This document shows, in pieces, positions 8,305 to 30,253 of a stretch of 63,865 nucleotides of DNA (its first letter is position 1; each line of letters starts with the position of its first letter). Origin of the DNA: Cryomorphaceae bacterium (GTDB taxonomy: Bacteria > Bacteroidota > Bacteroidia > Flavobacteriales > Flavobacteriaceae). The notes beneath the pieces were generated by a model that saw only the letters and a list, made by a program, of their open reading frames with translations, did no database searches and was not told where the DNA came from. The translations under genes were made by a program, and so were the position numbers. Location: NCBI GenBank assembly GCA_018646865.1, contig JABGTW010000075.1:1-63865 (forward strand). The letters run 5' to 3'.

Positions 8305-8335
8305 GTTGACAAAGATATAATATGCTATATATTTG
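8305..8335 (+). promoter_or_regulatory. Predicted holB promoter, leaderless type
   Basis: The sequence shows GTTG (8305-8308), a 19-base spacer and TATATTTG (8328-8335), close to the Bacteroidota TTTG-N19-TAnnTTTG promoter. The holB ATG at 8339 is only three bases after the -7 box, so the transcript should begin at or very near the start codon. Confidence 0.55.
8310..8317 (-). promoter_or_regulatory. Predicted -7 box for pgk
   Basis: Read on the minus strand this is TATCTTTG, a match to TAnnTTTG, 19 bases before the pgk ATG at 8290. It lies inside the spacer of the opposing holB promoter, so the two promoters physically overlap. Confidence 0.5.
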
Positions 8336-8338
8336 AGT

Positions 8339-10245: not shown

Positions 10246-10246
10246 T

Positions 10247-10262
10247 TGTTTCACGTGGAACA
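10247..10262. promoter_or_regulatory. parS-like ParB-binding site (15 of 16 bases)
   Basis: TGTTTCACGTGGAACA differs by one base from the 16-bp parS palindrome TGTTTCACGTGAAACA. It sits in the short gap between the mnmG stop and the methyltransferase ATG. The same one-base variant, read on the other strand, is a known natural parS in Bacillus. With the perfect copy at 12143 it brackets mnmG. Confidence 0.75.
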
Positions 10263-10263
10263 A

Positions 10264-12562: not shown

Positions 12563-12569
12563 ATTTTGA

Positions 12570-12577
12570 CAAATATA
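12570..12577 (-). promoter_or_regulatory. Predicted -7 box for ybeY-mnmG, leaderless type
   Basis: On the minus strand it reads TATATTTG, seven bases before the ybeY ATG at 12562. With transcription starting about seven bases after the box, the mRNA would begin at the start codon. Confidence 0.5.
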
Positions 12578-12620
12578 AATCAATTCTTTAGGATAATTTC
12601 AATAAGGAATAATATGGTGT

Positions 12621-12628
12621 TATATTTG
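12621..12628 (+). promoter_or_regulatory. Predicted -7 box for gltX, leaderless type
   Basis: TATATTTG ends four bases before the gltX ATG at 12633. The four bases are AAGG, too close to the ATG for a normal ribosome-binding site. Confidence 0.55.
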
Positions 12629-12632
12629 AAGG

Positions 12633-14081
12633 ATGAAAGAAAGAGCTAGATTTGCCCCAAGCCCAACAGGGCCACTTCATATTGGAGGTGTAAGAACAGC
12701 TCTTTTCAATTACTTAATAGCAAAAAAAAGTGGAGGCAGCTTTATCCTTAGGATAGAAGATACAGACTCCAAAAGAACTGTAGAAGGAGCTGAAAAACAC
12801 ATAATCGATTCGCTGGAGTGGCTAGGATTAAATTTTGACGAAGGGCCAGTAAAACAGAGTGAACGGAAGTCTCTTTACAAAAAAAGCGTTTCTTCTTTGA
12901 TTGAAAAAGGCCTAGCTTATTATGCTTTTGATACTGCAGACGAACTAGAAAAAGCAAGAAAAGCTTCCGGCGGAAACTTTAAGTACAACTTTACAACAAG
13001 GAAGAGCCTCGCAAACTCTTTCTCTTTGGGTGAAGAAGAAACCAAGCGAAGAGTTAAGGCAGGAAGGTTTGTTGTCAGAATGACTGTTCCTGAAAACAAA
13101 ACAATTAACGTTGTTGATCAGGTTAGAGGAGGTTTAAGCTTCAATTCTGAAGAACTAGAAGACAAAATAATATTAAAGTCTGACGGTATGCCAACATATC
13201 ACCTAGCAAATGTTGTAGATGACAACCATATGAACATAACCTCTGTTATTAGAGGAGAGGAGTGGCTTTCTTCGCTGCCCTCTCATGTTCTTTTGTATGA
13301 ACATTTTGGTTGGACTCCTCCAAAATTTTACCACTTGCCTTTAATTCTAAAAAGTTCTGGCGCCGGAAAGCTATCAAAAAGAGATGCTGAGGAACAGGGT
13401 CATCCCGTTTTTGCGGTAACCTGGGAAGGTTCAATGGGGTTTAAAGAAGCGGGGGTTTCTCCAGAAGGGCTTGTGAATTATTTAGCTCTTTTGGGCTGGA
13501 GCAACAGCTCAGATAGAGAAAAGTATTCCCTTGAAGAATTGGTTAAAGACTTTAATGATGGGGGCATTAATAAATCTGGAGCTCGTTTTGATTATAAAAA
13601 AGCTTTATGGATAAATCATCTTCACATGAAGGATTTTTCTGCCGAGAAGCTTCTTTCCTTATCAGACGAATCCTCTACTAGGTTAAAAGAAAAATATACT
13701 TTGGAGCAGTCAGAAGAAATTATTGATTTAATAAAAGAGAGGCTTAATACAGCTCTAGACATAAATAAAGAGTTAAAGGTTTTTCTTGGTCAACCAAAAG
13801 AGTATGACTTGGCTGTTATTAAAAAAATTACTAGAGAGGTTGTCTTTGATATTTTAAATTTTTGTAAATTAAGCAAGCCACTAATGTCAGACCCTAAAGC
13901 GCTTAAAGAAAAATTAATGGGTTTTGCATCAAAGAATGGTATTTCCTTTGGAAACATAATGAAGTCTTTGCGCTTGTGTCTGGTTGGAAGCTTAACTGGT
14001 CCTGATTTATTTAAAATAATTAAAATTATAGGTCCTGAAGAGACCTTAAATAGAATTGAAAGTTTAACTAATAAAATATAA
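12633..14081 (+). CDS. gltX: Glutamate-tRNA ligase
   Basis: A class I aminoacyl-tRNA synthetase that charges tRNA-Glu. The PTGPLHIGGVRTALFN segment carries the HIGH-type motif and GKLSKRD is the KMSKS equivalent; HLPLILKSSGAG precedes it as expected. At 482 residues it is slightly shorter than many homologues, through a compact C-terminal anticodon-binding part. A separate glnS is present nearby, so the organism need not make Gln-tRNA by amidation. The band-7 gene follows after two bases, in an apparent operon. Confidence 0.95.
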   Translation: MKERARFAPSPTGPLHIGGVRTALFNYLIAKKSGGSFILRIEDTDSKRTVEGAEKHIIDSLEWLGLNFDEGPVKQSERKSLYKKSVSSLIEKGLAYYAFDTADELEKARKASGGNFKYNFTTRKSLANSFSLGEEETKRRVKAGRFVVRMTVPENKTINVVDQVRGGLSFNSEELEDKIILKSDGMPTYHLANVVDDNHMNITSVIRGEEWLSSLPSHVLLYEHFGWTPPKFYHLPLILKSSGAGKLSKRDAEEQGHPVFAVTWEGSMGFKEAGVSPEGLVNYLALLGWSNSSDREKYSLEELVKDFNDGGINKSGARFDYKKALWINHLHMKDFSAEKLLSLSDESSTRLKEKYTLEQSEEIIDLIKERLNTALDINKELKVFLGQPKEYDLAVIKKITREVVFDILNFCKLSKPLMSDPKALKEKLMGFASKNGISFGNIMKSLRLCLVGSLTGPDLFKIIKIIGPEETLNRIESLTNKI

Positions 14082-14083
14082 AA

Positions 14084-15073
14084 ATGATTTTTTTAACACC
14101 CTTACTTATACTATTTCTTTTTTTCATCCTTACCTCTACGGTTTTTATTGTAAAACAACAATCTGCTGCAATAGTGGAAAGGTTTGGTAAATTTCAGTCT
14201 GTTAGAGGTCCTGGTCTTCAGATAAAAATTCCTCTTGTAGACAGAATAGCTGGGAGGTTAAGCTTAAAGGTTCTTCAGCTTGATGTTGTTGTAGAGACAA
14301 AAACCAGCGATGATGTTTTTGTAAAACTAAAAGTTTCTGTTCAATATAGGGTTGTTGACTCAAAGGTGTTTGACGCGTTTTATAAGCTTGATTTTCCTCA
14401 AGATCAAATTACCTCTTATGTGTTTGATTTAATTCGTTCTCAAGTTCCAAAAATGAAACTAGACGATGTTTTTTCAAAACAAGACGATATAGCTGTTGCT
14501 GTAAAGCAGTCATTAGGAGAGGCAATGGATGAGTATGGTTATTTCATTGTGAAAGCCTTAGTTACAGATATTGAGCCAGACGCTGAGGTTAAAATAGCTA
14601 TGAATAGAATCAACGCTGCTGATAGAGAAAAAACAGCTGCTCAATACGAGGGTGATGCTGCAAGAATTTTGATGGTTGAGAAAGCGAAAGCTGAAGCTGA
14701 AAGCAAAAGACTTCAGGGTCAAGGTATAGCAGATCAAAGAAGAGAGATTGCGAAAGGTATTGAGGATTCTGTTGGCACTCTAGGGTCTGTAGGTATAAAC
14801 TCGCAAGAAGCTTCTGCTTTAATTGTTGTTACACAACACTATGACACTCTTCAATCAATAGGGGGTGAAACAAATTCAAACCTTATCCTTCTTCCCAACT
14901 CTCCTCAGGCAGGGAGCACAATGCTAAATGATATGGTTGCGGCGTTTTCCGCTAGCAGCAAAATAGGTGAGGCAATGCAAAAAGAGAATCAAAAAATTTC
15001 TAGCAGCCCTCCTAAGCAAGTTGTTTCAAAAAAACCTCAAGCTCCTGAATTTGGAGAATTTGAAAATGAATAA
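14084..15073 (+). CDS. SPFH/band 7 (stomatin-like) membrane protein
   Basis: A 329-residue protein with one N-terminal membrane anchor (about 1-22), an SPFH domain starting at VKQQSAAIVERFGKF, and a long helical region rich in Ala, Glu and Lys (about 170-230) that should oligomerise, followed by a flexible polar tail. Such proteins form large membrane-associated rings and often work with NfeD-like partners or membrane proteases; no NfeD gene is adjacent here. It is co-transcribed with gltX (two-base gap). The codons are strongly T-ended, like other plus-strand genes left of 19.4 kb. Confidence 0.9.
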   Translation: MIFLTPLLILFLFFILTSTVFIVKQQSAAIVERFGKFQSVRGPGLQIKIPLVDRIAGRLSLKVLQLDVVVETKTSDDVFVKLKVSVQYRVVDSKVFDAFYKLDFPQDQITSYVFDLIRSQVPKMKLDDVFSKQDDIAVAVKQSLGEAMDEYGYFIVKALVTDIEPDAEVKIAMNRINAADREKTAAQYEGDAARILMVEKAKAEAESKRLQGQGIADQRREIAKGIEDSVGTLGSVGINSQEASALIVVTQHYDTLQSIGGETNSNLILLPNSPQAGSTMLNDMVAAFSASSKIGEAMQKENQKISSSPPKQVVSKKPQAPEFGEFENE

Positions 15074-15100
15074 AATAGTTGGTTTTATTTTTTCCAACTA
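15070..15100 (-). terminator. Hairpin terminator downstream of glnS
   Basis: TAGTTGG (15076-15082) pairs with CCAACTA (15094-15100). On the minus strand the hairpin is followed by a U-rich run, so it should end glnS transcription. It covers the junction between the converging band-7 and glnS genes, and the glnS stop codon lies in its loop. Confidence 0.6.
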
Positions 15101-16779
15101 TCTCTTAACCCTACAGTTTTATTAAACTCTAGGGTTTTTTTGTTTGCAGTTCTAACAAAATATCCAACCCTTTGAAATTGAAATTGCTGAGCCTCTATAG
15201 ATTCTGCTAGATATGGTTCCACAAAAGCTTCTTTTATCTCTAATGAGTTTTGATTAATCTCGTTTTTAAACCCCTTTTCCTTTCCTGGTTCTGAAACCTT
15301 AAATAGGCGATCATATATGTTTATTTTAGCTTTTACGGAATCTGTTGCTGAAACCCAATGAATTGTTCCTTTAACTTTTCTGTTACTTTCAGGGGTGTTT
15401 GACCCGCTTTTACTTTTGCTGTCATACTCACACAAAACCTCTTTAATGTTGCCTTTTTCATCCGCAACAAGGTCTACAGCTTTAATAATATACGCGTTTT
15501 TCAACCTAACCTCTTCTCCTATTGAAAGTCTGAAAAATCCTTCCTCAGGTTCTTCCTGAAAGTCTTCTCTTTCTATATAAATTTCTTTTGAAAAATTAAT
15601 TTCTCTTGTTCCAAGAGTTTTGTCTTGGGGGTTGATGTCAAAATTTATTTTTTCCCCTCCATCCTTTACGTAATTAATTATTTTTATTTTGATTGGATCT
15701 ATCACAGCCATTGCTCTTGGCGCAACCTGATTCAAATGAGCTCTTATGCAGAACTCTAAAAGTGATGCTTCTATAACATTTTCTCTTTTTGACACCCCTA
15801 CAGTTAAAGCAAAGTTTTTAAGAGCCTCTGGCGTATATCCTCTTTTCCTTAAGCCCGAAATAGTTGGCATTCTAGGGTCGTCCCACCCTTCCACAATATT
15901 CTCTTCAACTAGCTTTGCAAGTTTTCTTTTACTTGTGATTGTGTAAGAAAGGTTCAGTCTAGAAAACTCTCTTTGTTTAGGCCTTACGCCTTGAAGTGGG
16001 CTAATTGCGTCTAGAAACCAGTCGTAAAGCTCGCGATGTGGTTCAAATTCTAGAGTACAAAGGGAGTGTGAAACCTGCTCTATATAATCTGATTCTCCAT
16101 GGGTCCAGTCATACATTGGATACACTTTCCATTTTCCTCCGGTTCTATGGTGGTGTACATTCATAACCCTATACAAGACTGGGTCTCTCATCAACATGTT
16201 TGGAGAGCTCATGTTTATTTTAGCCCTTAAAACATGTTTTCCAGAATCATGATGACCCTCAAACATTTCCTTAAACAGTTTTAAGCTTTCCTCTTTATCT
16301 CTAGTCCTGAATCGGCTTGCTTGTCCTTCCTTTGTCGGTGTTCCTTTTTGAGCTGCTATTTCCTCTGAAGATTGCGAATCAATGTATGCAAGGTCTTTTT
16401 TAATTAAGCTCGTCGCCCAGTCATACAGCTGATCAAAATAATCTGATGCATAGCACTCTTTGTCCCACTCAAAACCGAGCCACTTTATGTCGTTTTTAAT
16501 AGCATCTACATATTCTTTTGCTTCTTTTTCTGGGTTTGTGTCATCAAAACGAAGGTTTACCGGGGAATTGTATTTTTCACCTAAATTAAAATTTAAACAT
16601 ATTGCTTTAAGGTGCCCTATGTGAAGGTGTCCATTTGGTTCTGGAGGAAACCTAAACCTTAGGTCTTTATTTTCAAATCCTCTCGCGATGTCGCCATCTA
16701 TAATTTGTTCAATAAAATTTGGACCTTTTTTCTTCACCTTGTCAAAGATATTGAAAAGCAAATTAGGAACTGTGTTCAC
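15085..16779 (-). CDS. glnS: Glutamine-tRNA ligase
   Basis: Charges tRNA-Gln directly. It has the NFIEQIIDGDI N-terminal helix, the RFPPEPNGHLHIGHLKA segment with the HIGH motif, and TSKRKLAKLVE as the KMSKS-like loop, then the anticodon-binding beta barrels up to VGLRDSWKK. The 564-residue length is normal. The GTG at 16779 is the only plausible start close to the conserved part. It is divergent from folB, 21 bases apart, and its -7 box lies inside folB. Confidence 0.95.
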   Translation of the reverse strand: MNTVPNLLFNIFDKVKKKGPNFIEQIIDGDIARGFENKDLRFRFPPEPNGHLHIGHLKAICLNFNLGEKYNSPVNLRFDDTNPEKEAKEYVDAIKNDIKWLGFEWDKECYASDYFDQLYDWATSLIKKDLAYIDSQSSEEIAAQKGTPTKEGQASRFRTRDKEESLKLFKEMFEGHHDSGKHVLRAKINMSSPNMLMRDPVLYRVMNVHHHRTGGKWKVYPMYDWTHGESDYIEQVSHSLCTLEFEPHRELYDWFLDAISPLQGVRPKQREFSRLNLSYTITSKRKLAKLVEENIVEGWDDPRMPTISGLRKRGYTPEALKNFALTVGVSKRENVIEASLLEFCIRAHLNQVAPRAMAVIDPIKIKIINYVKDGGEKINFDINPQDKTLGTREINFSKEIYIEREDFQEEPEEGFFRLSIGEEVRLKNAYIIKAVDLVADEKGNIKEVLCEYDSKSKSGSNTPESNRKVKGTIHWVSATDSVKAKINIYDRLFKVSEPGKEKGFKNEINQNSLEIKEAFVEPYLAESIEAQQFQFQRVGYFVRTANKKTLEFNKTVGLRDSWKK

Positions 16780-16784
16780 TTTTA

Positions 16785-16792
16785 TATCTTTG
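16785..16792 (+). promoter_or_regulatory. Predicted -7 box for folB, near leaderless
   Basis: TATCTTTG ends eight bases before the folB ATG at 16801. An out-of-frame ATG begins immediately after the box and would not give the protein. Confidence 0.5.
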
Positions 16793-16800
16793 ATGAAATT

Positions 16801-17151
16801 ATGTCAAAAATATCTGTAAATAATGCCTGGTTTTATTCTTTTCACGGATGTCTTCATGAAGAAAGTGTTATTGGGGCTGAGTATCTTGTTAGTGCATCTA
16901 TTGAGGTTGACACCTCTGTTGCTGAAAAAAACGACAAACTTGAAAACACTGTTGATTATGTTTCTATTTACAGTGTCTTAAAAAAAGAAATGGGTGAGCC
17001 TTCAAAACTTCTTGAAACTGTTCTTGAAAAAATAATAGTTGGAATTAAAAAGCTTAACGAGAACATTACCTCTGTTGATGTTAGCATCAAAAAACTTTCC
17101 CCTCCCATAAGCGGAAATGTTGATTCTGTTGAATTAAGAAAGAAAGTTTAA
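16801..17151 (+). CDS. folB: Dihydroneopterin aldolase
   Basis: FolB cleaves 7,8-dihydroneopterin to 6-hydroxymethyl-dihydropterin and glycolaldehyde in folate synthesis. The 116-residue protein starts MSKISVNNAWFYSFHGC, with the GCLHEESVIG segment carrying the substrate-binding Glu, and ends with a C-terminal KLSPPISG that fits the family. Longer readings upstream run through the promoter, so I take the ATG at 16801. tRNA-Cys follows from its own promoter. No other folate gene is near. Confidence 0.88.
   Translation: MSKISVNNAWFYSFHGCLHEESVIGAEYLVSASIEVDTSVAEKNDKLENTVDYVSIYSVLKKEMGEPSKLLETVLEKIIVGIKKLNENITSVDVSIKKLSPPISGNVDSVELRKKV
16805..16812 (-). promoter_or_regulatory. Predicted -7 box for glnS
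   Basis: On the minus strand it reads TATTTTTG, 25 bases before the glnS GTG at 16779. It lies within the first codons of folB, so the two divergent promoters overlap. Confidence 0.45.
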
Positions 17152-17160
17152 TCTTTTTTT

Positions 17161-17168
17161 TATTTTTG
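17161..17168 (+). promoter_or_regulatory. Predicted -7 box for tRNA-Cys
   Basis: TATTTTTG ends eight bases before the first base of the mature tRNA. This puts an upper bound of about eight bases on the distance from box to transcription start in this organism. Confidence 0.6.
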
Positions 17169-17176
17169 CAGTCAAT

Positions 17177-17247
17177 GGCATTGTGGCCGAGTGGCTAGGC
17201 GGAGCTCTGCAAAAGCTTTCACAGCGGTTCGAATCCGCTCGATGCCT
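17177..17247 (+). tRNA. tRNA-Cys (anticodon GCA)
   Basis: A full cloverleaf is visible: acceptor GGCATTG pairs with CGATGCC (one G-T pair), the D arm is GCC...GGC, the anticodon loop is CTGCAAA with anticodon GCA, and the T arm is AGCGG-TTCGAAT-CCGCT. The discriminator base is T, as expected for tRNA-Cys. CCA is not encoded. The last base overlaps the rnr stop codon on the other strand. Confidence 0.95.
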
Positions 17248-19397
17248 CAACTAAGGACTTGAAAATCAAGTCTTTTCTTTATCTTGTCAGCTTTTACTAA
17301 CATGACTCTTGTTTTGTCGCCAAGCTGATATTTTTTTCCTGTTTTTTCTCCAACGAACCTGTGGCTCTTTTGATCATGAACAAAATAGTCTCCTGGAAGA
17401 TCTTTAGCCTTAACCATTCCCTCACATTTGTTTTCTACCACCTCTACAAACACGCCTCTTGCTATAACCCCTGATATAACAGCTTCAAAAATCTGCCCTT
17501 CTTTATCGAGCATATATTTAATTTGCATTAGTTTGATTGAATCTCTTTCTGCTTTTGTAGCCAGAATCTCCATGTGTGTCGAGTGTTTACAGAGGGTTTC
17601 TAATTCTTCGGTTTTTATCTTTATTTTTTCAATTTCTGCCTGAATTAATCTGTGAACCAAAACATCTGGATATCTTCTAATTGGCGAGGTGAAGTGTGTG
17701 TAGTTTTCAAAAGAAAGTCCGTAATGACCAATATTTTTTGTTGTATATTCTGCCTTACTCATGCTTCTTATCATCAGCGTGTCTATTAGGTTTTGCTCAT
17801 TTTTCCCAAAACATTTTTTTAACAATTCGTTCAGTGATCCATTAAGCTCTGTGTTTGAAAGCTTAAGGTTGTACCCAAGTCTTTTTACAACCGTTTGGAG
17901 GTTTTCAAGTTTTTCATGGTCGGGTTGATCGTGAACCCTGTATACAAACCTTTCTTTGCTTTGTTTCATTTTTTCTGCTACTTTTTTGTTTGCCAAAAGC
18001 ATAAACTCCTCTATTAGCTTGTTTGCGCTTTTGCTTGTTTTAAAAAGTATCTTTTGTGGTTGGTTTTTTTCGTCTAACTGAAATTTTATTTCTGATTTGT
18101 CAAATATTAGAGCTCCGCTGTTTATTCTTTTCTTTCTAATTGTTTTTGCAATACCGTTAAGGGTCGTGATTGCTTCTACTATTTTTTGGGTTACCCTTTT
18201 TTCTTCTTTTAGAATTGTTTCTTCTTTTGGTATTGTTGTTGATTCGTTTTCTATAATATACTGTGCCTCTTCATAAGAAAGCCTACAATCTGACTCTGTA
18301 ACTGTTTTTCCGTACCACTCCTCTAAAACCTGTCCGTTGTTTTTCATTACAAAAACCGCTGAAAAGGTTAGTTTTTCTTCGTTTGGCCTAAGAGAACACA
18401 GGTTGTTTGAAAGCGTTTCTGGAAGCATCGGTATTACCCTGTCTACAAGATAAACTGAGGTGGCTCTGTTTTGTGCCTCTTCGTCTATTTTCGATCCTGG
18501 GGTAACATAATGTGATACATCCGCAATGTGAACCCCTACCTCATATTTGTTTTCCCCTATTACCTTAAATGATATTGCATCATCAAAATCTTTTGCGTCT
18601 ACTGGGTCGATGGTAAAGGTCATTGTTCCCCTCATGTCTCTTCTTTTCTTTACCTCTTCTTTTTTTATTATAGATTTTATTTTTGCCGCCTCCTCTTCCA
18701 CCTCACCCTCAAATTCTGTTGACAAACCATACTCGTATAAAATTGAATATGCGTCTAATGCGTCTTCTCCAAAACCAAAACTTTTTATTATTCTCCCTTG
18801 CGGAGAGTCTTTAGCTTTTTCCCAGCTTTTAATCTCTACAGCTACTTTTTCCCCCTCCTTGTAGTCTTTCATTTCTTCTTTTGTTATAAAGAAGTCTGTA
18901 TACATTCTTGCGTTTCTTGTGTTAACAAAAGCATATTCTTTACTTTTTTGAAAAACCCCAACAAACACTTCTTTTTTTCTTTCTACTATTTCTACTATTT
19001 TTCCTTCGTATTTGTTTTTTGTTTTTTTCTTTCCCATGATTATTCTAACCCTGTCTCCTTGTAGACCTCTGTTTAGGTTTCGTTGTTCAACCATAACGTC
19101 CCCGTCTAGATCATCACAAACAACGTAACCTCTGCCCGTGGTTGTTATCTCAAGCACTCCTTCTACTGTTTCGTTTTGAATTGCTGGGGCAACAAACCCA
19201 CCTTTACCGACGCTTATTATTTTCTCTTTCTTCAAAAGTGTGTTTAAAACCTTTATTATTTCTCCCCTTCCTCTCGTGTCGTTTACTCCAATAGAAAACG
19301 CTATTTGCTTGTAGTTAAATTCTTTGTTTGGGGAATTTATAATCAACGATGTTATCTTTCTCTCTAAACCCTTTACCTCCTTCTTTTTTTTAGACAT
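17247..19397 (-). CDS. rnr: Ribonuclease R (RNB family exoribonuclease)
   Basis: A processive 3'-5' exoribonuclease acting on structured RNA. The 716-residue protein shows an N-terminal winged-helix and cold-shock part, the RNB catalytic signature DPVDAKDFDDAISF with its four Asp residues (about 267-280), the HYGLSFENYTHFTSPIRRYPD segment in two parts, and a C-terminal S1 domain. The ATG at 19397 lies 19 bases after a -7 box. The coding strand is A-rich at third positions, unlike minus-strand genes on the other side of the 19.4-19.8 kb gap. Its TGA stop shares one base with tRNA-Cys. Confidence 0.96.
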   Translation of the reverse strand: MSKKKKEVKGLERKITSLIINSPNKEFNYKQIAFSIGVNDTRGRGEIIKVLNTLLKKEKIISVGKGGFVAPAIQNETVEGVLEITTTGRGYVVCDDLDGDVMVEQRNLNRGLQGDRVRIIMGKKKTKNKYEGKIVEIVERKKEVFVGVFQKSKEYAFVNTRNARMYTDFFITKEEMKDYKEGEKVAVEIKSWEKAKDSPQGRIIKSFGFGEDALDAYSILYEYGLSTEFEGEVEEEAAKIKSIIKKEEVKKRRDMRGTMTFTIDPVDAKDFDDAISFKVIGENKYEVGVHIADVSHYVTPGSKIDEEAQNRATSVYLVDRVIPMLPETLSNNLCSLRPNEEKLTFSAVFVMKNNGQVLEEWYGKTVTESDCRLSYEEAQYIIENESTTIPKEETILKEEKRVTQKIVEAITTLNGIAKTIRKKRINSGALIFDKSEIKFQLDEKNQPQKILFKTSKSANKLIEEFMLLANKKVAEKMKQSKERFVYRVHDQPDHEKLENLQTVVKRLGYNLKLSNTELNGSLNELLKKCFGKNEQNLIDTLMIRSMSKAEYTTKNIGHYGLSFENYTHFTSPIRRYPDVLVHRLIQAEIEKIKIKTEELETLCKHSTHMEILATKAERDSIKLMQIKYMLDKEGQIFEAVISGVIARGVFVEVVENKCEGMVKAKDLPGDYFVHDQKSHRFVGEKTGKKYQLGDKTRVMLVKADKIKKRLDFQVLS
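17256..17280 (+). terminator. Terminator of tRNA-Cys, inside rnr
   Basis: GACTTGA (17256-17262) pairs perfectly with TCAAGTC (17266-17272) around an AAA loop and is followed by TTTTCTTT. It starts nine bases after the tRNA. The hairpin is encoded in the antisense of the last rnr codons. Confidence 0.7.
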
Positions 19398-19817
19398 CTT
19401 TCTTATTTTTGAATTTCAAAGATACTGTTAATAAAACCCGGACAATTTTTATTATCAATAAACATTTAAACATATTTATAATAATTAATATTTAATATTA
19501 AACTTGTATTATATAGGCTGTTAATTTCTTAATAAAAAGAGTTTAAAAAAAAACAAGCAAACAAAAAAAGAACATAATTAACAAACAATAAACAATTTAA
19601 AAAACTGAACAGCAGAGAGAAACAAAAGAATTAAACAGTTGTTAATAAAAGAAAAAAAAGAAAAATGTTTACAAGTAAAATAAACAAAACAAAGAAAAAG
19701 GTGTTAGAAAAAGTGTTGATGTTGTTAAGAAAAAGAAAAACAAATAGTTATTAAGAATAACAAATCAAGTATTAACAACATATAAAAAATAATAAAGGAA
19801 TTACTAATTTGAGAGAT
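19398..19817. other. A-rich intergenic region with base-composition switch
   Basis: This is the only gap above 300 bases and it holds no credible ORF. From 19541 to 19800 I count by hand about 159 A, 49 T, 32 G and 20 C, a very strong purine and A bias on the plus strand; 19431-19530 is more balanced. Six copies of TGTTAA or its complement lie at about 19426, 19519, 19578 (reverse), 19640, 19723 and 19772 (reverse). Flanking genes change codon endings from T-ended (plus strand, left) to A/C-ended (plus strand, right). It is probably a replication origin or terminus. No consensus DnaA box (TTATCCACA) and no convincing dif site was found. Confidence 0.5.
19417..19424 (-). promoter_or_regulatory. 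Predicted -7 box for rnr
   Basis: On the minus strand it reads TATCTTTG, 19 bases before the rnr ATG at 19397; a TTG lies 18 bases further upstream as a possible -33 element. Confidence 0.5.
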
Positions 19818-20252
19818 ATGATAATAGCAATAGGAAATGACCACGCAGGCGTTGGGGTAAAAGAAAAAATACAACAACATTTAATAAGTAAAGGACACAG
19901 CGTTATTAACAAAGGGTATGACGGGAAGGAAAGCGTCGACTACCCTGATTTTATTCACCCAGTTTCAATAGAAGTTAAAGAAAAAAAAGCAGAAATAGGG
20001 GTGATTGTATGTGGAAGTGGAAACGGAGCAGCAATGACAGCAAATAAACACAAAGGAATAAGGGCGGCAATATGTTGGAGTGAAGAAATAGCCGCTTTAG
20101 CCAAGCAACACAACAAAGCAAACATTATAAGCATACCGTCAAGATTTTTAAAAGAGGAAGAAATATTAAGCATCATAGATGTTTTTATAAAAGAGGGTTT
20201 TGAAGGGGGAAGACACGAAAGAAGAATAAAAAAAATTGACCAGAATGATTGA
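19818..20252 (+). CDS. rpiB: Ribose-5-phosphate isomerase B
   Basis: RpiB interconverts ribose-5-phosphate and ribulose-5-phosphate in the pentose phosphate pathway. The 144-residue protein begins MIIAIGNDHAG, the family's N-terminal signature, and carries VIVCGSGNGAAMTANK with the catalytic Cys and the phosphate loop. I chose the ATG at 19818; the TTG nine bases upstream only adds MRD. The stop overlaps the GNAT start by eight bases. Codons end in A and C, a clear change from plus-strand genes just left of the gap. Confidence 0.94.
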   Translation: MIIAIGNDHAGVGVKEKIQQHLISKGHSVINKGYDGKESVDYPDFIHPVSIEVKEKKAEIGVIVCGSGNGAAMTANKHKGIRAAICWSEEIAALAKQHNKANIISIPSRFLKEEEILSIIDVFIKEGFEGGRHERRIKKIDQND

Positions 20253-20688
20253 GTGGAAAGAAAAAAAATTCTCTGAGCTTACCACAAAAGAGCTATACGA
20301 ATTATCAAGAATAAGATCAGAGATTTTCGTGGTAGAACAAAAAATTTTATACAACGACTTTGATAGAAAAGACTATAAAGCAATTCATTTAAGCGGGTTT
20401 TTAGAAGACAGGTTAACAGCATACGCAAGAATATTTAAAGAGGGAGACTATTACGAAGCCTATCCAGGGTTTGGGAGGGTAGCTATTTTAGAAAAAGAAA
20501 GAGGAAAGGGCTACGGAAAAGAGCTGGTTAAAAAATGTGTAGAGGTTTGTAGAAAAAATTTCAAAAACAAGGAAATAAAAATATCAGCACAATCATACCT
20601 AGAAAGGTTTTATGAAGAGCTGGGGTTTGAGTTTAGAGGGGAAAGGTATATGGAGGACGGAATTCCACATTGCGCAATGTACCTTTGA
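20245..20688 (+). CDS. GNAT acetyltransferase, ElaA-like
   Basis: A 147-residue GNAT fold protein resembling ElaA. The N-terminal RIRSEIFVVEQ segment is the typical ElaA opening; GRVAILEKERGKGYGKELV holds the R-x2-G-x-G/A acetyl-CoA loop (RGKGYG), and LERFYEELGFEFRG is the usual motif B. The start is the ATG at 20245, which overlaps rpiB and suggests coupling. The acceptor substrate of ElaA proteins is not established. It converges on rnpA with a 10-base gap. Confidence 0.85.
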   Translation: MIEWKEKKFSELTTKELYELSRIRSEIFVVEQKILYNDFDRKDYKAIHLSGFLEDRLTAYARIFKEGDYYEAYPGFGRVAILEKERGKGYGKELVKKCVEVCRKNFKNKEIKISAQSYLERFYEELGFEFRGERYMEDGIPHCAMYL

Positions 20689-20698
20689 TTTAAACAAA

Positions 20699-21010
20699 TT
20701 AGAAAAGAGAACAAACATCATTGTTAAGCTCATCGAAGTCTACAAAAGAAGAGTGGGAATAAATAAGCATATACCAACCAAACCCATTTTTTCTAAACAC
20801 CTCTTCGTTCTTTATTAAAATTTCACGAAGCTGTCTTTTTATTTTGTTTCTATCAACAGCCCTAGGAAAAGATTTTTTAGGAACAGAAACAACATAAAAA
20901 AGACCCTCCGATTCTTGCTCTAAAAAAATACAGCGCAGAAAGGAAGAGGAAAGCCTTTTCCCTTTTTCAAAAAGAAAATCAATTTTTTTATTTCCCTTTA
21001 AAGGTTTCAT
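20699..21010 (-). CDS. rnpA: Ribonuclease P protein component
   Basis: RnpA is the protein subunit that helps RNase P RNA cut the 5' leader of pre-tRNAs. The 103-residue protein opens with KKIDFLFEKGKRLSSSFL and has the central RNKIKRQLRE motif that contacts RNA. It is a little shorter than the common 115-125 residues. It is not next to rpmH, its partner in many phyla, but overlaps the end of the MBL-fold gene by four bases. Confidence 0.92.
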   Translation of the reverse strand: MKPLKGNKKIDFLFEKGKRLSSSFLRCIFLEQESEGLFYVVSVPKKSFPRAVDRNKIKRQLREILIKNEEVFRKNGFGWYMLIYSHSSFVDFDELNNDVCSLF

Positions 21011-21858
21011 TTAAAAAGTTCTTTTATGGTAGAAGACCTATCAAACCTAACACCTTTTTCTGTGTTTTTAACAAAAACAACCTCATTAACGGGGTCGTGT
21101 TGTAGAAAAAGCAACACATCCTCATCCACAACGCTTTTTAAAATTCTCTCCTTTTCCCGCATTGTAACAAGCGGCCTAACATCATAACCCATCAAATAAG
21201 GAACAGGAATGTGGCCGGCGGTTGGAACAAGGTCAGAAGCAAAAAGAATAGTTTTACCCTTATATTTAATTTTAGGCAAAGCCATTTTTTCTGTGTGACC
21301 ATTCACTAAAAGAAGATCTAACCCAAGCTCAGGACAAACCCCATCTTCATCGCTGTCATAAAGGTTTAGCTGGCCAGACTCCATAAGAGGAAAAAGATTT
21401 TCCTGTAAAAAAGAAGCCTTCTCCCTAGGGTTAGGGCTAACAGTCGCCCACTCCCAATGACTTTTAGAACAAAAAAAACGAGCATTATTAAAAACAGGTA
21501 TAATTTTATCACCCTCTCTCTTTGTGGCTCCACCACAATGATCAAAGTGAAGGTGGGTAAAAAGAACATCTGTTATATCGTTGGGGCTAAAACCAAGCGA
21601 GTCAAGAGAGTTAAGCAAAGTGGCGTCCCCAAATCGAGAGTAGTGGCTAAAAAATTTTTCACTCTGTTTGTCACCCAATCCAGCATCAACAAGAATAAGT
21701 TTTTTACCATCCTCAATAAGCAAACAACGTGCGCTCATATCAATTCTGTTTTTTGAATCAGCAGGATTTGTTTTTTCCCACAAGGGTTTTGGAACAACGC
21801 CAAACATAGCGCCCCCATCTAATTTAAATTTTCCGGTTTCTATAGAATGTAAAACCAT
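21007..21858 (-). CDS. Metallo-beta-lactamase-fold hydrolase
   Basis: A 283-residue MBL-fold protein. It has the metal motif THLHFDHCGG (HxHxDH), an upstream LVDAGLGD segment, the VNGHTEKM His and the LFASDLVP Asp, so both metal sites look complete. There is no signal peptide, so it is cytosolic. The layout is like lactonase/hydrolase members of the family, but the substrate cannot be assigned. It overlaps rnpA and lies directly downstream of lepA in the same orientation. Confidence 0.85.
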   Translation of the reverse strand: MVLHSIETGKFKLDGGAMFGVVPKPLWEKTNPADSKNRIDMSARCLLIEDGKKLILVDAGLGDKQSEKFFSHYSRFGDATLLNSLDSLGFSPNDITDVLFTHLHFDHCGGATKREGDKIIPVFNNARFFCSKSHWEWATVSPNPREKASFLQENLFPLMESGQLNLYDSDEDGVCPELGLDLLLVNGHTEKMALPKIKYKGKTILFASDLVPTAGHIPVPYLMGYDVRPLVTMREKERILKSVVDEDVLLFLQHDPVNEVVFVKNTEKGVRFDRSSTIKELFK

Positions 21859-23658
21859 TTAGTCGTTTATTTTTAGAACAGCCATAAATGCTTGTTGAGG
21901 TATTTCAACACTTCCAACCATTCTCATTTTTTTCTTTCCCTTTTTCTGCTTTTCTAGAAGCTTCCTTTTCCTAGTTACATCACCACCATAAAGCTTTGCC
22001 GTAACATCTTTCCTAAAAGCTTTAATTGTTTCACGAGAAATAATTTTTGCCCCAATTGCAGCCTGAACAGGAATGTCAAACTGTTGTCTTGGAATAAGCT
22101 CTTTAAGTTTTTCACAAAGCTTTCTACCCATTCTTTGTGCATTGTCTGCGTGTATTAAAGAAGAAAGAGCATCAACCGGTTTACCGTTGAGTAAAATATC
22201 AAGCCTTACAAGTTTTGAGGCAACAAAACCCGCTGGAGTATAATCTAAAGAGGCATACCCTTTCGAAACAGACTTTAAGCGATCATAAAAATCAAAAACT
22301 ATTTCTGCAAGAGGGAGCCTAAAATTTAACTCAACTCTTTCGGTTGTCAAGTATCTTTGGTTTTTAATTTCACCTCTTTTTTCAATACAAAGAGTCAGAA
22401 CGTTGCCCACAAACTCAGACTTTGTTATAATTGTAGCATCAATATAGGGCTCTTCCACCCTGTTTAAGCTTGAAGGGTCAGGCAAATCAGAAGGGTTGTT
22501 AACCAAGATTTTAGCAGAAGGGTCTTTATTTACATAAGCGTTATAAGAAACATTAGGCACGGTTGTTATAACAGACATATTAAACTCTCTTTGAAGACGC
22601 TCTTGTATTATTTCTAAATGAAGCATACCTAAGAAACCACACCGAAAACCAAAACCAAGAGCAGCAGAGCTCTCTGGAGAAAAAACCAAAGAAGCATCGT
22701 TTAATTGCAGCTTCTCCATACTTGAGCGAAGATCTTCATAGTCATCTGTGTCTACGGGGTAAATTCCAGCAAAAACCATTGGCTTCACCTCTTCAAACCC
22801 CTCAATAGCGGGCATGGACTCTTCATTAACAAGCGTAATAGTATCCCCAACCTTTACGTCTTTTGCGTCTTTTATCCCTGTAATTAAATAACCAACATCG
22901 CCGGTTTTAATTACTTTTTTAGGCACCTGACTAAGCTTTAAGGTTCCAACCTCTTCAACTCCATAATCCTTACCTGTAGAAACAAACCTAACTCTATCCC
23001 CTTTTGCAAGCCTACCATTCACAACCTTAAAATATGTCTCAATACCTCTGTAGGGATTAAAAACGGAATCAAAAATCAAAGCTTGTAAAGGTGAGTTGGG
23101 ATTTCCTTTGGGAGGAGGAACCCTATCAATAATTCCACGAAGAATGCCCTCAATGCCTTCTCCGGTTTTTGCTGACGCAAGAATAACATCTTCAGGCTTA
23201 CAGCCAATCAACGAAACAATTTCGTCAACAACAACGTCAGGATCAGCAGAAGGAAGATCTATCTTGTTTACAACAGGAATAATTTCTAAATCATTATCAA
23301 CCGCCAAGTATAGGTTTGAAATTGTCTGGGCTTGGATGCTTTGCGCAGCGTCCACCACCAATAAAGCGCCTTCACAGGCAGCAATTGCCCGAGAGACCTC
23401 ATAAGAAAAATCTACATGTCCGGGAGTATCAATTAGGTTTAAAATAAATTTTTCTCCATCGACTTCATAATCCATTTGAACAGCATGTGACTTAATTGTA
23501 ATACCTTTTTCTCTTTCAAGCTCCATGTCGTCAAGAAGTTGATCTTTTTTCTCACGATCAGTAACCGATCCAGTAAAATCAAGAAGACGGTCAGCAAGGG
23601 TGCTTTTACCGTGATCAATATGAGCGATAATACAGAAGTTACGTATGTTGTTTGACAA
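21859..23658 (-). CDS. lepA: Elongation factor 4 (LepA)
   Basis: A ribosome-associated translational GTPase. The G1 loop [15 protein letters not shown]3 DTPGHVDF and G4 NKIDLP are intact, followed by the EF-G-like domains and the LepA-specific C-terminus. I chose the TTG at 23658 (599 residues, normal length): the TTG at 23676 is itself the last three bases of the -7 box and could not be in the mRNA. The coding strand is T-ended, the opposite of minus-strand genes left of 19.4 kb. Confidence 0.96.
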
Positions 23659-23673
23659 GATAAATATTTTGGA

Positions 23674-23681
23674 CAAAGATA
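23674..23681 (-). promoter_or_regulatory. Predicted -7 box for lepA
   Basis: On the minus strand it reads TATCTTTG, with 15 bases to the TTG start at 23658. This box decides between the two TTG start candidates. Confidence 0.5.
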
Positions 23682-23732
23682 CTTACTTTGTATAATCTTC
23701 ATAGACAAGACATAAATAAATTCAGGAATTGT

Positions 23733-23740
23733 TATTTTTG
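23733..23740 (+). promoter_or_regulatory. Predicted -7 box for dusB, leaderless type
   Basis: TATTTTTG ends four bases before the dusB ATG at 23745. The in-frame codons upstream run through the box and are not expected to be translated. Confidence 0.55.
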
Positions 23741-23744
23741 CACC

Positions 23745-24737
23745 ATGGTTAAAATAGGAAACATAGAGCTTCCATCATTTCCCCTTCTTTTGGCTCCAAT
23801 GGAAGACGTGAGCGATCCGCCCTTCAGAGCACTCTGTAAAGAACAAGGCGCAGACGTTGTTTATACTGAGTTTATATCCAGTGAAGGGCTAATAAGAAAT
23901 GCTGCAAAAAGCACAAAAAAGCTTGACATCTATACAAAAGAAAGACCAGTTGGAATACAAATTTTTGGATCAAACCTAGACTCAATGCTTGGTGCCGTTG
24001 ATATTGTTGAACAAACAAACCCAGACATAATTGATATTAATTATGGCTGTCCTGTTAAGAAAGTTGTTTGTAAGGGAGCGGGGGCAGGGATATTAAAAGA
24101 CATTCCTTTAATGGTTGGCCTAACAAAAGAAATAGTAAAAAGAACAAATCTGCCCGTAACCGTTAAAACAAGATTGGGTTGGGACGAAAAAACAATTAAA
24201 ATTGCGGAGGTAGCAGAACGATTACAAGACGTGGGAATAAAGGCAATATCTATTCATGGCAGAACGAGAGCTCAGATGTATAAAGGAGAAGCAGATTGGA
24301 CTAAAATTTCTGAAATTAAAAATAATACAAGAATGCATATTCCTGTTTTCGGTAACGGGGATGTAAACAGCCCGGAAAAAGCAAAAGCAATGAGAGATGA
24401 TTATGGACTGGATGGGGCAATGATTGGAAGAGGATCAATAGGAAACCCCTGGTTTTTTAATAAAGTAAAACACTATTTAAATACAGGAAAAAAAATAGAA
24501 GAGCCAACAATTGCAGAAAGAGCAGAGATGGCGATAAGACATTTAAAAATGGCAATTGATTGGAAGGGAAATGTTTTAGGCGTGCTAGAAACGAGAAGAC
24601 ATTATGGAAATTACTTTAAAGGTATTGCGAATTTTAAAGAAACGAAAAGCAGAATCTTAAGGGAAAACGATCCAGTAATAATACTACAAGAGCTGGAGCT
24701 TGTTAAAAAAGTTTTTTTTGAAAAAGAGCTTGTTTAA
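23745..24737 (+). CDS. dusB: tRNA-dihydrouridine synthase
   Basis: An FMN-dependent enzyme that reduces uridine to dihydrouridine in the tRNA D loop. The 330-residue protein shows LLAPMEDVSDPPFR at the N-terminus, INYGCPVKKVVCKGAG with the catalytic Cys, ISIHGRTRAQMYKG, and GAMIGRGSIGNPWFF near the FMN phosphate. This pattern is that of the DusB group. The start is the ATG at 23745, right after its promoter. It ends in a four-base convergent overlap with the permease gene. Confidence 0.93.
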   Translation: MVKIGNIELPSFPLLLAPMEDVSDPPFRALCKEQGADVVYTEFISSEGLIRNAAKSTKKLDIYTKERPVGIQIFGSNLDSMLGAVDIVEQTNPDIIDINYGCPVKKVVCKGAGAGILKDIPLMVGLTKEIVKRTNLPVTVKTRLGWDEKTIKIAEVAERLQDVGIKAISIHGRTRAQMYKGEADWTKISEIKNNTRMHIPVFGNGDVNSPEKAKAMRDDYGLDGAMIGRGSIGNPWFFNKVKHYLNTGKKIEEPTIAERAEMAIRHLKMAIDWKGNVLGVLETRRHYGNYFKGIANFKETKSRILRENDPVIILQELELVKKVFFEKELV

Positions 24738-25930
24738 GAGATGCTTCTTACTCGAGTTGACCAAGCAGAGGTAACAACGCCAAGAAAAAAGATTGTTGAA
24801 AAGACAATAAAAACATTCACCAAGGTTAAAGAAATAGGGTAAGGTATTGAAGTGCCCGGAACCACAACAAGAGAGTAAGTATTTTGAAAAACAATAACAA
24901 CCCAAGCAATAACAATTCCTAGCAAAGCGCCAAAAACGGAGGTAAAAACACCAAGTGTAAAAAAGATTTTATTAAAGTCACCTTCTTGCCCACCCAACGA
25001 CCTTAGAACCCTTAAATCCTTTTTCTTCTCTACCATCATAATTGTTAGAGAGCCAACTAAATTAAACATCGAGATCAGCGCAACGAGTGAAAAAATTAAG
25101 TAAACAGCCAGATTTTCTGTATTCAACATTTTATATAGGGCAGGGTTTAAGTCTTGTTTGTCCAAAACCACAACAGTAGAGTTAAAAAAGCCCTCAACCT
25201 CTTTGCTTAATACTTCTTTGCCAACAAAGCCATTAGTCATAACCTCAACAGAGGTATAAGAGTTTTCACCAACACCAACTAAAGATCGAACTGTGTTTAT
25301 AGGGGCAAAAGCATATTTTTTTTCTATATCTACGCTGATTTGATATATACCTTCAATTTCAAGTTTTGTTGAGTTAAAAGGAGTAAAACTAAACAAAGAC
25401 CTTGTTTTTTTCTTTGCAGCAGTAGCTAATAAAGAAAACTCCTCACTCATTACAACCTCAAGAGAAGAAGCTAAATCAGCGCCTAAGTACAAAGAGTTGT
25501 CTTTTGATGGAGAAAAAACACCGATTAGCGAGAGAGAATCCAAAACAGAAGCGAGATGGTAGTCAACACCAACCCCTTTTAATATTGTAGCTCCAGAATT
25601 TAGCTCATTTGAAAGGACAACTTTCTCTTCTATTACAGGAGAAGCCTCTTTTACAAAGCCAAAGCCTTTAATTTTATCCAAATCTTCATCTTTTAACACA
25701 AAATAACTGCCGCTTTTGGGCATAATTTTTAGGTCAGGGTCAAAAGAGCTGGTATATGCTAGGCCGAAATCCATAAGCCCGGCAAAAGCACTAAGCACAA
25801 CAAGCAAAACACAAGAAGCAGCAACGATCATTAAAAAAGCAAAACCATTAATTCTGTTTACAATTGTCTTGGAATCTTTTGAAAAAAAATAACGGACAGC
25901 AAGCCTATATGTGTACGATTTAAAAATCAC
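24734..25930 (-). CDS. FtsX/LolE-like ABC transporter permease
   Basis: A 398-residue membrane protein with the MacB/FtsX layout: one N-terminal membrane helix (about 28-55), a large periplasmic domain (about 56-270) and three C-terminal helices. The cytoplasmic loop KKKDLRVLRSLGGQ after the second helix is the family's ATPase-coupling segment. LolC/E-type permeases of lipoprotein export look like this. No ATPase gene is adjacent, so the partner is elsewhere. Its ATG overlaps the rbfA stop by four bases, a common flavobacterial pairing. Confidence 0.85.
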   Translation of the reverse strand: MIFKSYTYRLAVRYFFSKDSKTIVNRINGFAFLMIVAASCVLLVVLSAFAGLMDFGLAYTSSFDPDLKIMPKSGSYFVLKDEDLDKIKGFGFVKEASPVIEEKVVLSNELNSGATILKGVGVDYHLASVLDSLSLIGVFSPSKDNSLYLGADLASSLEVVMSEEFSLLATAAKKKTRSLFSFTPFNSTKLEIEGIYQISVDIEKKYAFAPINTVRSLVGVGENSYTSVEVMTNGFVGKEVLSKEVEGFFNSTVVVLDKQDLNPALYKMLNTENLAVYLIFSLVALISMFNLVGSLTIMMVEKKKDLRVLRSLGGQEGDFNKIFFTLGVFTSVFGALLGIVIAWVVIVFQNTYSLVVVPGTSIPYPISLTLVNVFIVFSTIFFLGVVTSAWSTRVRSIS

Positions 25931-26289
25931 CCTCTAATTGGATTGTCAGGGTTTTGAATTGAGTCTTCAACGGAGTCTATATAATCCAGCGAGTCATCAA
26001 GAAAAAAAGCAAGCTCAGGAACTTTTCTAAGATGATTTTTAAGAACGCCAGAAAGATCATGCTTTATTCTAGGAGCATTACTTTGAATTAATGACAGGTT
26101 TTCGCTGGAAACTTTGCTGGGAAAGATGCTTAGATAAATTTTACATAAAGAAAGATCAGGAGAAACACGAGCCTGTGTTACAGAAATAACAAGATTCTTT
26201 GAACCGCCCCTTCTCAAGTCTGCGCTAATTAAATTTGCCACCTCCTTCTGTATAAGAGAAGAAATTTTTTTTTGTCTTTGCGTTTCCAT
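25927..26289 (-). CDS. rbfA: Ribosome-binding factor A
   Basis: RbfA binds the 30S subunit during late 16S rRNA maturation. The 120-residue protein has the family's KH-like layout: an N-terminal IQKEVANLISADLR helix, VTQARVSPDLSLCKIYLS strands, and RKVPELAFFLDDSLDYIDSV in two short parts near the C-terminus. It leads a two-gene unit with the LolE-like permease. Confidence 0.92.
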   Translation of the reverse strand: METQRQKKISSLIQKEVANLISADLRRGGSKNLVISVTQARVSPDLSLCKIYLSIFPSKVSSENLSLIQSNAPRIKHDLSGVLKNHLRKVPELAFFLDDSLDYIDSVEDSIQNPDNPIRG

Positions 26290-26356
26290 TTTTCAAAAGT
26301 ACTAGAAATAAAAAACAATATTTCAATTTAAGTTTTATAAAAACATTGTGAAATTG

Positions 26357-26364
26357 TATATTTG
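26357..26364 (+). promoter_or_regulatory. Predicted -7 box for the CAU tRNA
   Basis: TATATTTG ends ten bases before the first base of the tRNA, the same arrangement as at tRNA-Cys. Confidence 0.6.
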
Positions 26365-26374
26365 CCGCCAAACC

Positions 26375-26448
26375 GGTCCTATAGCTCAGTTGGTTAGAGT
26401 AGATGACTCATAATCATTTGGTCCCTGGTTCGAGTCCAGGTGGGACCA
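26375..26448 (+). tRNA. tRNA with CAU anticodon (tRNA-Met, elongator, or tRNA-Ile2)
   Basis: The cloverleaf is complete: acceptor GGTCCTA with TGGGACC, D arm GCTC...GAGT, anticodon stem GATGA/TCATT around CTCATAA, and T arm CCTGG-TTCGAGT-CCAGG. The CAU anticodon reads AUG, or AUA if C34 is lysidinylated by TilS. The initiator features (mismatched first pair, three G-C pairs in the anticodon stem) are absent. I lean to elongator Met but cannot exclude Ile2. Confidence 0.93.
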
Positions 26449-26453
26449 CCCTT

Positions 26454-26480
26454 AAAACCCCTTTTCTTGAGGGGTTTTTT
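26454..26480 (+). terminator. Intrinsic terminator after the CAU tRNA
   Basis: AAAACCCC (26454-26461) pairs with GGGGTTTT (26471-26478) around a nine-base loop and runs into six T residues. Confidence 0.85.
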
Positions 26481-26495
26481 GTTAATAATTTGTAA

Positions 26496-27173
26496 TTAAG
26501 ATAAATCAGGTAATTTTTCTATTTCCCATAAGCAAATAGACTTATCCGCATATATGCCATCCATCTCATTACACTTTTCATTAAAAGTGATTAGAGGTTT
26601 AGGAAAATTAAATGGTTCTTTTTCTAAATTAACAGGCCTCCAACCAGCTGAATATATATCTATGTTTTTTTCTAGATTAACAAAAGATGTACTCATTAGG
26701 TATTTTGATTTAGATTGTTTAATTCTAAATATTGATTTTTTAATGTCTTCATAAGAAAAATGAACAAGACAGTCTCTAACAAACATTAAATCACCTTTAG
26801 TTAATTCTGAACTCGTAATATCAGAGCAATAGAAGTTAATATTAGTTTTTTTAAAGTTTTTATTATTCTCTTCTATAGCTGAATTAACAATATCAAAGCC
26901 CTTATAATTTATGTTTTTCATATCAAGAGATGACATCCAATTAAAATCACCACATGGTATATCTATAATTGATTTGATATTATATTGCTTAATAATTTGA
27001 TTTATTGCCCTTAGGACCTCTTTAGTGTTTTTAATTTCAGACCCTATACCAGATCTGCTTTCATTACTTTCCCAGGAATTTTCATTGTAAATTTTTTCAA
27101 ATCTTTCTTGAATAGTAAGTTTTGAAAATTTTGATTTTGAGAAGTTATTATAATATGATATTTTTTTTTCCAA
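26496..27173 (-). CDS. Class I SAM-dependent methyltransferase
   Basis: A 225-residue protein with SAM motif I IIDIPCGDFNWM, motif post-I FDIVNSAI and DLMFVRDCLVHFSYED as the catalytic-side motif. The acceptor is unknown. It starts with a TTG at 27173, as no ATG precedes the conserved region. It sits immediately beside the tRNA terminator, is richer in AT (many Asn, Lys and Ile) than its neighbours and belongs to none of the conserved gene blocks here, so it may have been acquired. That transfer is inference. Confidence 0.72.
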   Translation of the reverse strand: MEKKISYYNNFSKSKFSKLTIQERFEKIYNENSWESNESRSGIGSEIKNTKEVLRAINQIIKQYNIKSIIDIPCGDFNWMSSLDMKNINYKGFDIVNSAIEENNKNFKKTNINFYCSDITSSELTKGDLMFVRDCLVHFSYEDIKKSIFRIKQSKSKYLMSTSFVNLEKNIDIYSAGWRPVNLEKEPFNFPKPLITFNEKCNEMDGIYADKSICLWEIEKLPDLS

Positions 27174-27189
27174 TTAATTCATTTGAATT

Positions 27190-28101: not shown

Positions 28102-28112
28102 AGATTTTTTTG

Positions 28113-28547: not shown

Positions 28548-28553
28548 GTCTCA

Positions 28554-29651: not shown

Positions 29652-29653
29652 GT

Positions 29654-30238: not shown

Positions 30239-30253
30239 ATGTATAAATTTAAA

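Follow-up and report, generated by a model that had tools for sequence, protein, structure and literature searches.

The intergenic gap at positions 19398-19808, which separates the divergent genes rnr and rpiB, very probably serves a small-genome flavobacterium, probably a marine one, as its origin of chromosome replication (oriC). The gap lies in a stretch of 63,865 nucleotides (hereafter the window), and the dnaA gene of the same genome is found on another contig, C42. The identification draws on an abrupt change of strand composition at the gap, on the sign of the comparable change in a relative of the same order, on the orientation of rRNA genes and on a nearby pair of parS-like sites. 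The asymmetry itself is concentrated around the gap, and the position upstream of rpiB is shared widely in the order.

The strand-composition switch between rnr and rpiB

The features that define the switch are the following (skews refer to fourfold-degenerate sites of the plus strand):

257-19397, no strand: left arm of the skew halo around the gap, plus strand T-rich (AT skew -0.19)
17247-19397, minus strand: rnr (ribonuclease R), left neighbour of the gap (Pfam RNB, E 7.6e-111)
19398-19808, no strand: proposed oriC, intergenic between divergent rnr and rpiB, 411 bp, 81% A+T
19541-19808, plus strand: A-rich half of the gap (60% A, 20% T)
19809-39400, no strand: right arm of the halo, plus strand A-rich (AT skew +0.43 in the first 5 kb and about +0.1 at 15-30 kb)
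19818-20252, plus strand: rpiB (ribose-5-phosphate isomerase B), right neighbour of the gap and landmark in the order (Pfam LacAB_rpiB, E 4.6e-52)

The AT skew of the plus strand at fourfold-degenerate sites passes from -0.19 left of the gap to +0.30 right of it, as measured to 39.4 kb. On the left it was negative in 15 of 16 ORFs (A 721, T 1051), with values of -0.37 in plus-strand genes and -0.13 in minus-strand genes, whereas on the right, to 39.4 kb, none of 18 ORFs was negative (A 1134, T 614) and the same +0.30 was obtained on both gene strands. When the right side was followed to the end of the window, 6 of 43 ORFs were negative and the skew was +0.19; it is highest next to the gap and, rather than being constant, dies away within some 20-40 kb. 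The rnr|rpiB boundary was the best single change point of the window, with a log-likelihood gain of 86 against a maximum of 49 in 5,000 permutations of gene order, none of which matched the observed gain, and none of 2,000 permutations reached the observed value of a 20-kb flip statistic.

These results bear out the original prediction, which had recognized from codon endings a strand-composition switch at this gap with a mirrored pattern in minus-strand genes; coding-strand fourfold counts were indeed A 120/T 70 in rnr and A 57/T 143 in lepA. The gap had likewise been described as passing from balanced to about 61% A, and it contains 41% A and 43% T at 19398-19540 and 61% A and 19% T at 19541-19800. 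The C-ended codons proposed for the genes on the right did not emerge as a clear feature, fourfold GC skew being mixed in the window. The gene names used (rnr, rpiB, GNAT, lepA, dusB, holB, folB and band-7) are backed by Pfam matches, as are rnpA and mnmG. rnpA (20699-21010) lies about 1 kb from the gap, on the other side from mnmG; both genes are often origin neighbours in other bacteria.

The arrangement is conserved in the genus. A search of 24 same-genus relatives with rpiB gave 14 matches, 13 of which were examined (G017, on a short contig, was left out), making 14 loci together with the window. rnr and rpiB were divergent in all 13 relatives, and all 14 loci had a gap of 405-444 bp with the same neighbours, an A+T content of 78-83% and 115-137 A versus 35-47 T in the rpiB-side half. 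All 14 loci combined a negative AT skew on the side of rnr with a positive one on that of rpiB, while GC skew rose from left to right in only 9/14. Of 626 boundaries scored in four genus genomes, the gap gave the strongest flip of each genome (0.54-0.67); among the 408 boundaries more than 30 kb away the largest flip was 0.25, and the sampled parts of G018, G023, G024 and the window contained no other flip of comparable size. In G018 the rpiB gene is split into three matches (L016, L030 and L031, at about 457.2-457.6 kb of G018:C1), and several genes near it are split too, which looks like the effect of sequencing indels in that assembly.

Two explanations would detach the flip from replication. 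The assembly of the window consists of 83 contigs (1.30 Mb, 82% complete), and a join of two opposite-strand fragments at the gap might produce a false flip; the same gene order, gap and flip in 13 other genus assemblies make this hardly conceivable. Alternatively, the flip could be a property of the local genes, i.e. of their codon usage, expression or transcription strand, and not of their position, as the neighbours of the gap are conserved housekeeping genes and G+C at fourfold sites is also higher near it. However, genes of both strands show mirrored skew, and the coding fourfold AT skew of lepA is -0.43 in the window versus -0.12 to +0.21 in 11 relatives of other families, the gene lying about 0.15-0.92 Mb from the rpiB gap in G026, G027 and G037. 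Its bias differs between window and relatives, and the effect therefore follows position, which leaves an explanation by gene properties very unlikely.

Polarity of the switch and candidate origin elements

Where leading and lagging strands exchange, the same flip could mark either an origin or a terminus, depending on the composition of the leading strand. A G/T-rich leading strand is common in bacteria, and an excerpt of PMC5291525 places most Bacteroidetes genomes in the group with this composition; the gap would then be a terminus, in which the T-rich strand turns from leading to lagging where forks meet. We calibrated the sign on G026, a single contig of 3.07 Mb from the same order, by sampling 18 stretches. 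Fourfold GC skew was -0.09 to -0.38 in the nine stretches before about 1.45 Mb, 0.00 where the change occurs and +0.16 to +0.46 in the eight beyond it, and the opposite change falls between 3.0 Mb and 0. AT skew changed more weakly, from -0.13 to +0.01 on the left to +0.05 to +0.14 on the right. At the resolution of single genes, the turning point was placed near 1.457-1.459 Mb, either at the pgk|rpiB gap or immediately to its right; rpiB and two further genes (1.469-1.471 Mb) retain the GC sign of the left side. The comparable locus of G026 thus goes from C to G excess with A-rich outgoing strands. Since the outgoing strand is G- and A-rich there, the flip of the window, which is A-rich outward on both sides, is that of an origin, and the assumption of a G/T-rich leading strand, under which the original prediction had considered a terminus, fails.

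The orientation of rRNA genes points the same way. Among 17 single-contig relatives with a 16S match and a long rpiB-upstream gap, all 48 copies found (drawn from the best 13-16 candidates per genome, so that some copies may be missing) read away from the gap, while random origins left at most 41 of the 48 outward in 20,000 trials. For this comparison contigs were assumed to be circular with the terminus opposite, copies split into pieces were joined and very small fragments discarded; G075 and G104 (no 16S match), G035 (rpiB without a long gap) and multi-contig genomes were left out. Similarly, S10 was directed outward in all four genomes in which it shares a contig with an origin-like rpiB gap (G026, G037, G018 and G028). 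Within the genus of the window, rRNA orientation comes from G018 only, in which both 16S and S10 read outward.

Two parS-like sites lie on the left of the gap:

10247-10262, no strand: parS-like site TGTTTCACGTGGAACA, exact match, about 9 kb from the gap
10264-12150, minus strand: mnmG (gidA), with a parS-like site on either side (Pfam GIDA, E 6.7e-161)
12143-12158, no strand: parS-like site TGTTTCACGTGAAACA, exact match, about 7 kb from the gap

Both sites, which had been invoked as an argument for an origin, match the parS consensus exactly; allowing up to two mismatches, the window contains three matches versus 0.24 expected. Of 12 genomes searched, 8 (among them that of the window) contain two such sites separated by about 1.9-2.0 kb, and the pair flanks mnmG in 7/7 genomes with mnmG located, G037 not being among them. 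A reversed control pattern gave three matches in G026 and none in the other 11 genomes.

Skew sign, rRNA orientation and parS contradict the terminus reading, against which the DnaA-box-like words described below also speak, and we give it next to no credence; the leading/lagging change foreseen at the gap is that of an origin. The samples of G026 do show the chromosome-wide skew extremum expected at such a site; in the genus of the window skew all but vanishes beyond about 80 kb, and the origin can hence not be confirmed there from a skew curve.

The gap contains the following short words:

19426-19434, minus strand: DnaA-box-like word TTATTAACA, one mismatch from TTATNCACA, recurring in rpiB-upstream gaps of other families
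19519-19524, minus strand: TTAACA core (TGTTAA on the plus strand), the top enriched 6-mer of 14 gaps
19578-19583, plus strand: TTAACA core, from the 6-mer enrichment
19640-19648, minus strand: DnaA-box-like word TTATTAACA, with a TTAACA/TGTTAA core hereabouts in most aligned genus gaps
19723-19728, minus strand: TTAACA core (TGTTAA on the plus strand), from the 6-mer enrichment
19770-19777, plus strand: TATTAACA core, within a conserved block of the genus alignment

In total, the gap of the window has two TTATTAACA words and six TTAACA cores. TTAACA was the most enriched 6-mer of the 14 genus gaps (68 versus 17.8 +/- 3.8 in shuffles) and was present in all of them, and exact TTATTAACA was found in 6/14 gaps, with seven occurrences versus 0.7 expected, although these gaps are related and their word counts are not independent. 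Exact TTATNCACA was absent from all 14 genus gaps, window included, and words up to one mismatch from it were not enriched in them (32 versus 30.6 in shuffles). The 19 gaps from other genera contained TTATNCACA 13 times (12 gaps) versus 0.86 in shuffles and TTATTAACA 22 times (15 gaps) versus 1.08, both words being about three times denser there than in other intergenic DNA within 10 kb; the commonest 8-mer of these gaps was TATTAACA (31 matches, 16/19 gaps). In G037, TTATTAACA sits in a tandem row between TTATCTACA and CTATTCACA, an arrangement suggesting that it may serve as a DnaA box.

Consensus DnaA boxes did not stand out in the window, in which TTATCCACA at up to one mismatch gave 17 matches versus 19.4 expected and none inside the gap. 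The C-terminal DnaA motif RRDHATVLHA, whose residues we take to be those that read the box, was found in G000, G018, G022 and G023. A change in the DnaA helix-turn-helix was considered as the reason for the TTATTAACA words but gained no support, the RDHAT motif of the genus being found also in G026 and G036; a pattern search for RDHAT-type motifs gave no match in G027, G028, G030, G034, G035 and G037.

We propose that DnaA, encoded elsewhere, would bind the degenerate TTATTAACA-type boxes of the gap and open its AT-rich DNA, from which two forks would leave in opposite directions, the strand switch then being the point where lagging turns into leading strand; the two parS sites around mnmG may mark the region for segregation by ParB/SMC. 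As in DnaA-dependent bacterial origins, the gap is AT-rich and intergenic, with a composition switch and DnaA-box-like words, parS and mnmG lie close by and rRNA genes are directed away; gidA is listed among the usual origin neighbours in an excerpt of PMC2768785. Unlike them, its landmark is rpiB and not dnaA, and the words of the genus are of the TTATTAACA type with no exact TTATNCACA. In G026 the dnaA gene (G026:C1:280474-281892) lies about 1.2 Mb from the inferred origin (1457 kb), and contigs of this order that start at dnaA hence need not begin at the origin.

The local skew halo

Data from the window, G018, G023 and G024 were pooled to follow the fourfold AT skew of the outgoing strand away from the gap. 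On the rnr side it was 0.26 in the first 5 kb, 0.09 at 5-10 kb and 0.16 at 10-15 kb; the corresponding values on the rpiB side were 0.46, 0.24 and 0.13. The skew was 0.00-0.07 at 20-60 kb, stayed within 0.02 of zero at 80-200 kb and became slightly negative beyond 200 kb. The fit gave an amplitude of 0.44 and a decay length of 11 kb (bootstrap 7-22 kb; single genomes 5-28 kb). Rather than a uniform skew along each arm, the genus therefore has a halo limited to about 10-20 kb on each side, and the samples of G018 showed no clear chromosome-wide fourfold skew. On the outgoing strand, fourfold sites have 25% T and 53% A at 0-5 kb versus 46% T and 43% A at 200-700 kb, the far bin being from G018 only, and G and C are each about doubled near the gap relative to that bin. 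Fourfold-site G+C declines with distance, being 22% in the first 5 kb and 11% in the 200-700 kb bin (again from G018 only). Lysine makes up 10.3% of outward-reading genes within 10 kb of the gap versus 7.9% beyond 60 kb.

Outside the genus the halo is variable. G027, from another family, has a similar one (0.20 and 0.33 in the first 5 kb, down to 0.02 at 100-200 kb), a weak one is present on one side in G037 and G030, and G034 and G028 have none, while G026 combines chromosome-wide skew with a slight rise on one side. Reshuffling inside the genus was ruled out as the cause of the fade, since G018 keeps much of the gene order of the window to about 27 kb on the rpiB side (katG onward, in the same relative orientation), and katG and the genes after it have skew near zero in both; older reshuffling may still lie behind it.

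As with the chromosome-wide GC and AT skew of bacteria, the sign changes at the origin, and the outgoing strand of G026 is G- and A-rich; unlike it, the skew of the genus is mainly AT and spans about 10-20 kb per side. In an excerpt of PMC3269016, bacterial skew is uniform along the strand and eukaryotic skew falls with distance from the origin. The skew of the genus resembles the N-shaped eukaryotic pattern outlined there in being highest at the origin and tending to zero with distance, and differs from it in being bacterial, in its fitted decay of about 11 kb and in showing no further origins in the sampled stretches. The excess of A over T on the leading strand is shared with Firmicutes, in which, according to PMC3174206, it results from gene orientation together with codon and amino-acid selection and follows the sense direction, whereas the asymmetry of the genus occurs at fourfold sites and in both gene orientations. 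A limited search of open-licence literature found no published description of an origin-local ('N-shaped') skew halo in bacteria, and the consulted portions of PMC3269012 and PMC4070872 do not bear on one.

Two mechanisms fit the halo, namely a process tied to initiation or early forks, and a randomised fork direction; either would leave the origin itself in place. Under the latter, dispersed or recombination-dependent initiation would randomise fork direction with distance, so that skew averages to zero beyond about 20 kb, in keeping with the resemblance of the decay to the N-shaped skew in the excerpt of PMC3269016 and with the lack of a clear chromosome-wide fourfold skew in the samples of G018. 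Such a mechanism needs initiation every few tens of kb, yet the samples of G018, G023, G024 and the window contained no second flip of comparable strength. Furthermore, outward-reading genes of G018 account for 0.63-0.93 of the fourfold sites on one side over 0-420 kb, and both 16S (about 510 kb) and S10 (about 405 kb) still read outward; on the other side the share was 0.40-0.48 up to 300 kb, i.e. without polarity, and 0.78 at 300-420 kb. We consider randomised forks improbable as the source of the halo.

An initiation or early-fork process is favoured because no other flip appears in the samples and the 16S and S10 genes of G018 are still outward. The process would be limited to initiation or to the first 10-20 kb of the forks, depleting T and leaving A on the outgoing strand. 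Tentatively, and with somewhat less than even confidence, we suggest that this phase has its own strand-asymmetric mutation (T lost, A kept), strong enough to shift the amino-acid use of nearby genes. The halo would then be the bacterial equivalent of the N-shaped eukaryotic skew, generated at a single origin instead of by dispersed firing. Possible sources of such mutation would be a start-up polymerase, or single strands that are long-lived before the full replisome works; in human, replication initiation is described as mutagenic in an excerpt of PMC9645720. Either mutation or selection may cause the halo. A mutational halo would allow initiation-associated mutation in a bacterium to be distinguished from the ordinary leading/lagging kind, a distinction that a uniform skew does not permit.

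The rpiB-upstream gap across the order

The position upstream of rpiB recurs well outside the genus. In the window's own family, a divergent rnr is located at most about 4 kb to the left of the rpiB gap in 7/7 genomes and adjoins it in five; in family f5, pgk adjoins the gap in 7/7, with mnmG about 4-5 kb away. Among the first nine loci of other families, six had a long rpiB-upstream gap and three (G032, G035 and G036) did not. A further set comprised 20 genomes, 18 of them single contigs; in 19/19 of the further genomes outside family f16 the gap measured 346-844 bp and contained at least two words up to one mismatch from TTATNCACA. As such one-mismatch words are common in AT-rich DNA, the enrichment against shuffles reported above matters more. 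Of 21 loci outside f16, 19, all but G047 and G056, combined a gap of 340 bp or more with a TTATN[A/C]ACA word. Among named rnr loci, rnr and rpiB were divergent around a gap in 15/33, including two Flavobacterium records (L238 and L239) whose gaps contain box-like words, while in named Bacteroidales rnr loci rpiB is not at that place. Local skew was weak across 19 loci of other genera; GC skew was higher right than left of the gap in 17, and the right-minus-left difference in AT skew was positive in only seven.

The rpiB gap is short (27-183 bp) and has no origin signs in G032, G035, G036, G047 and G056, and the position is therefore common and not universal. Loci L064, L172 and L185 of family f9, as well as L066 and L071, have a short rpiB-upstream gap without boxes, and the origin may lie elsewhere in these genomes.

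Family f16 is a case apart. dnaA was not found in any of the seven f16 genomes tested for it, and in all seven measured for the gap (G051, G072 and G077 belong to both sets) the rpiB-upstream gap was 43-122 bp with no TTATN[A/C]ACA word. For Blattabacterium, the absence of dnaA and of DnaA boxes is reported in an excerpt of PMC2768785; G051 (0.63 Mb), presumably a genome of this kind, has pgk and rpiB adjacent. The f16 genomes, which are small (0.3-0.6 Mb; L223, L169 and L190 are examples of their loci), look as if the origin region had decayed with the initiator.

In a limited search of open-licence literature, we found no publication naming rpiB as an origin neighbour in this group. The origin position thus appears to be undescribed although widely shared in the order, while the object itself, a bacterial origin, is of an ordinary kind. 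The genomes in which the gap has collapsed and dnaA was not found provide a natural comparison. For much of the order, in which dnaA can be distant from the origin and skew weak, the rpiB-upstream gap constitutes an origin landmark, which would aid growth-rate estimates based on coverage as well as the location of the origin in fragmented genomes.
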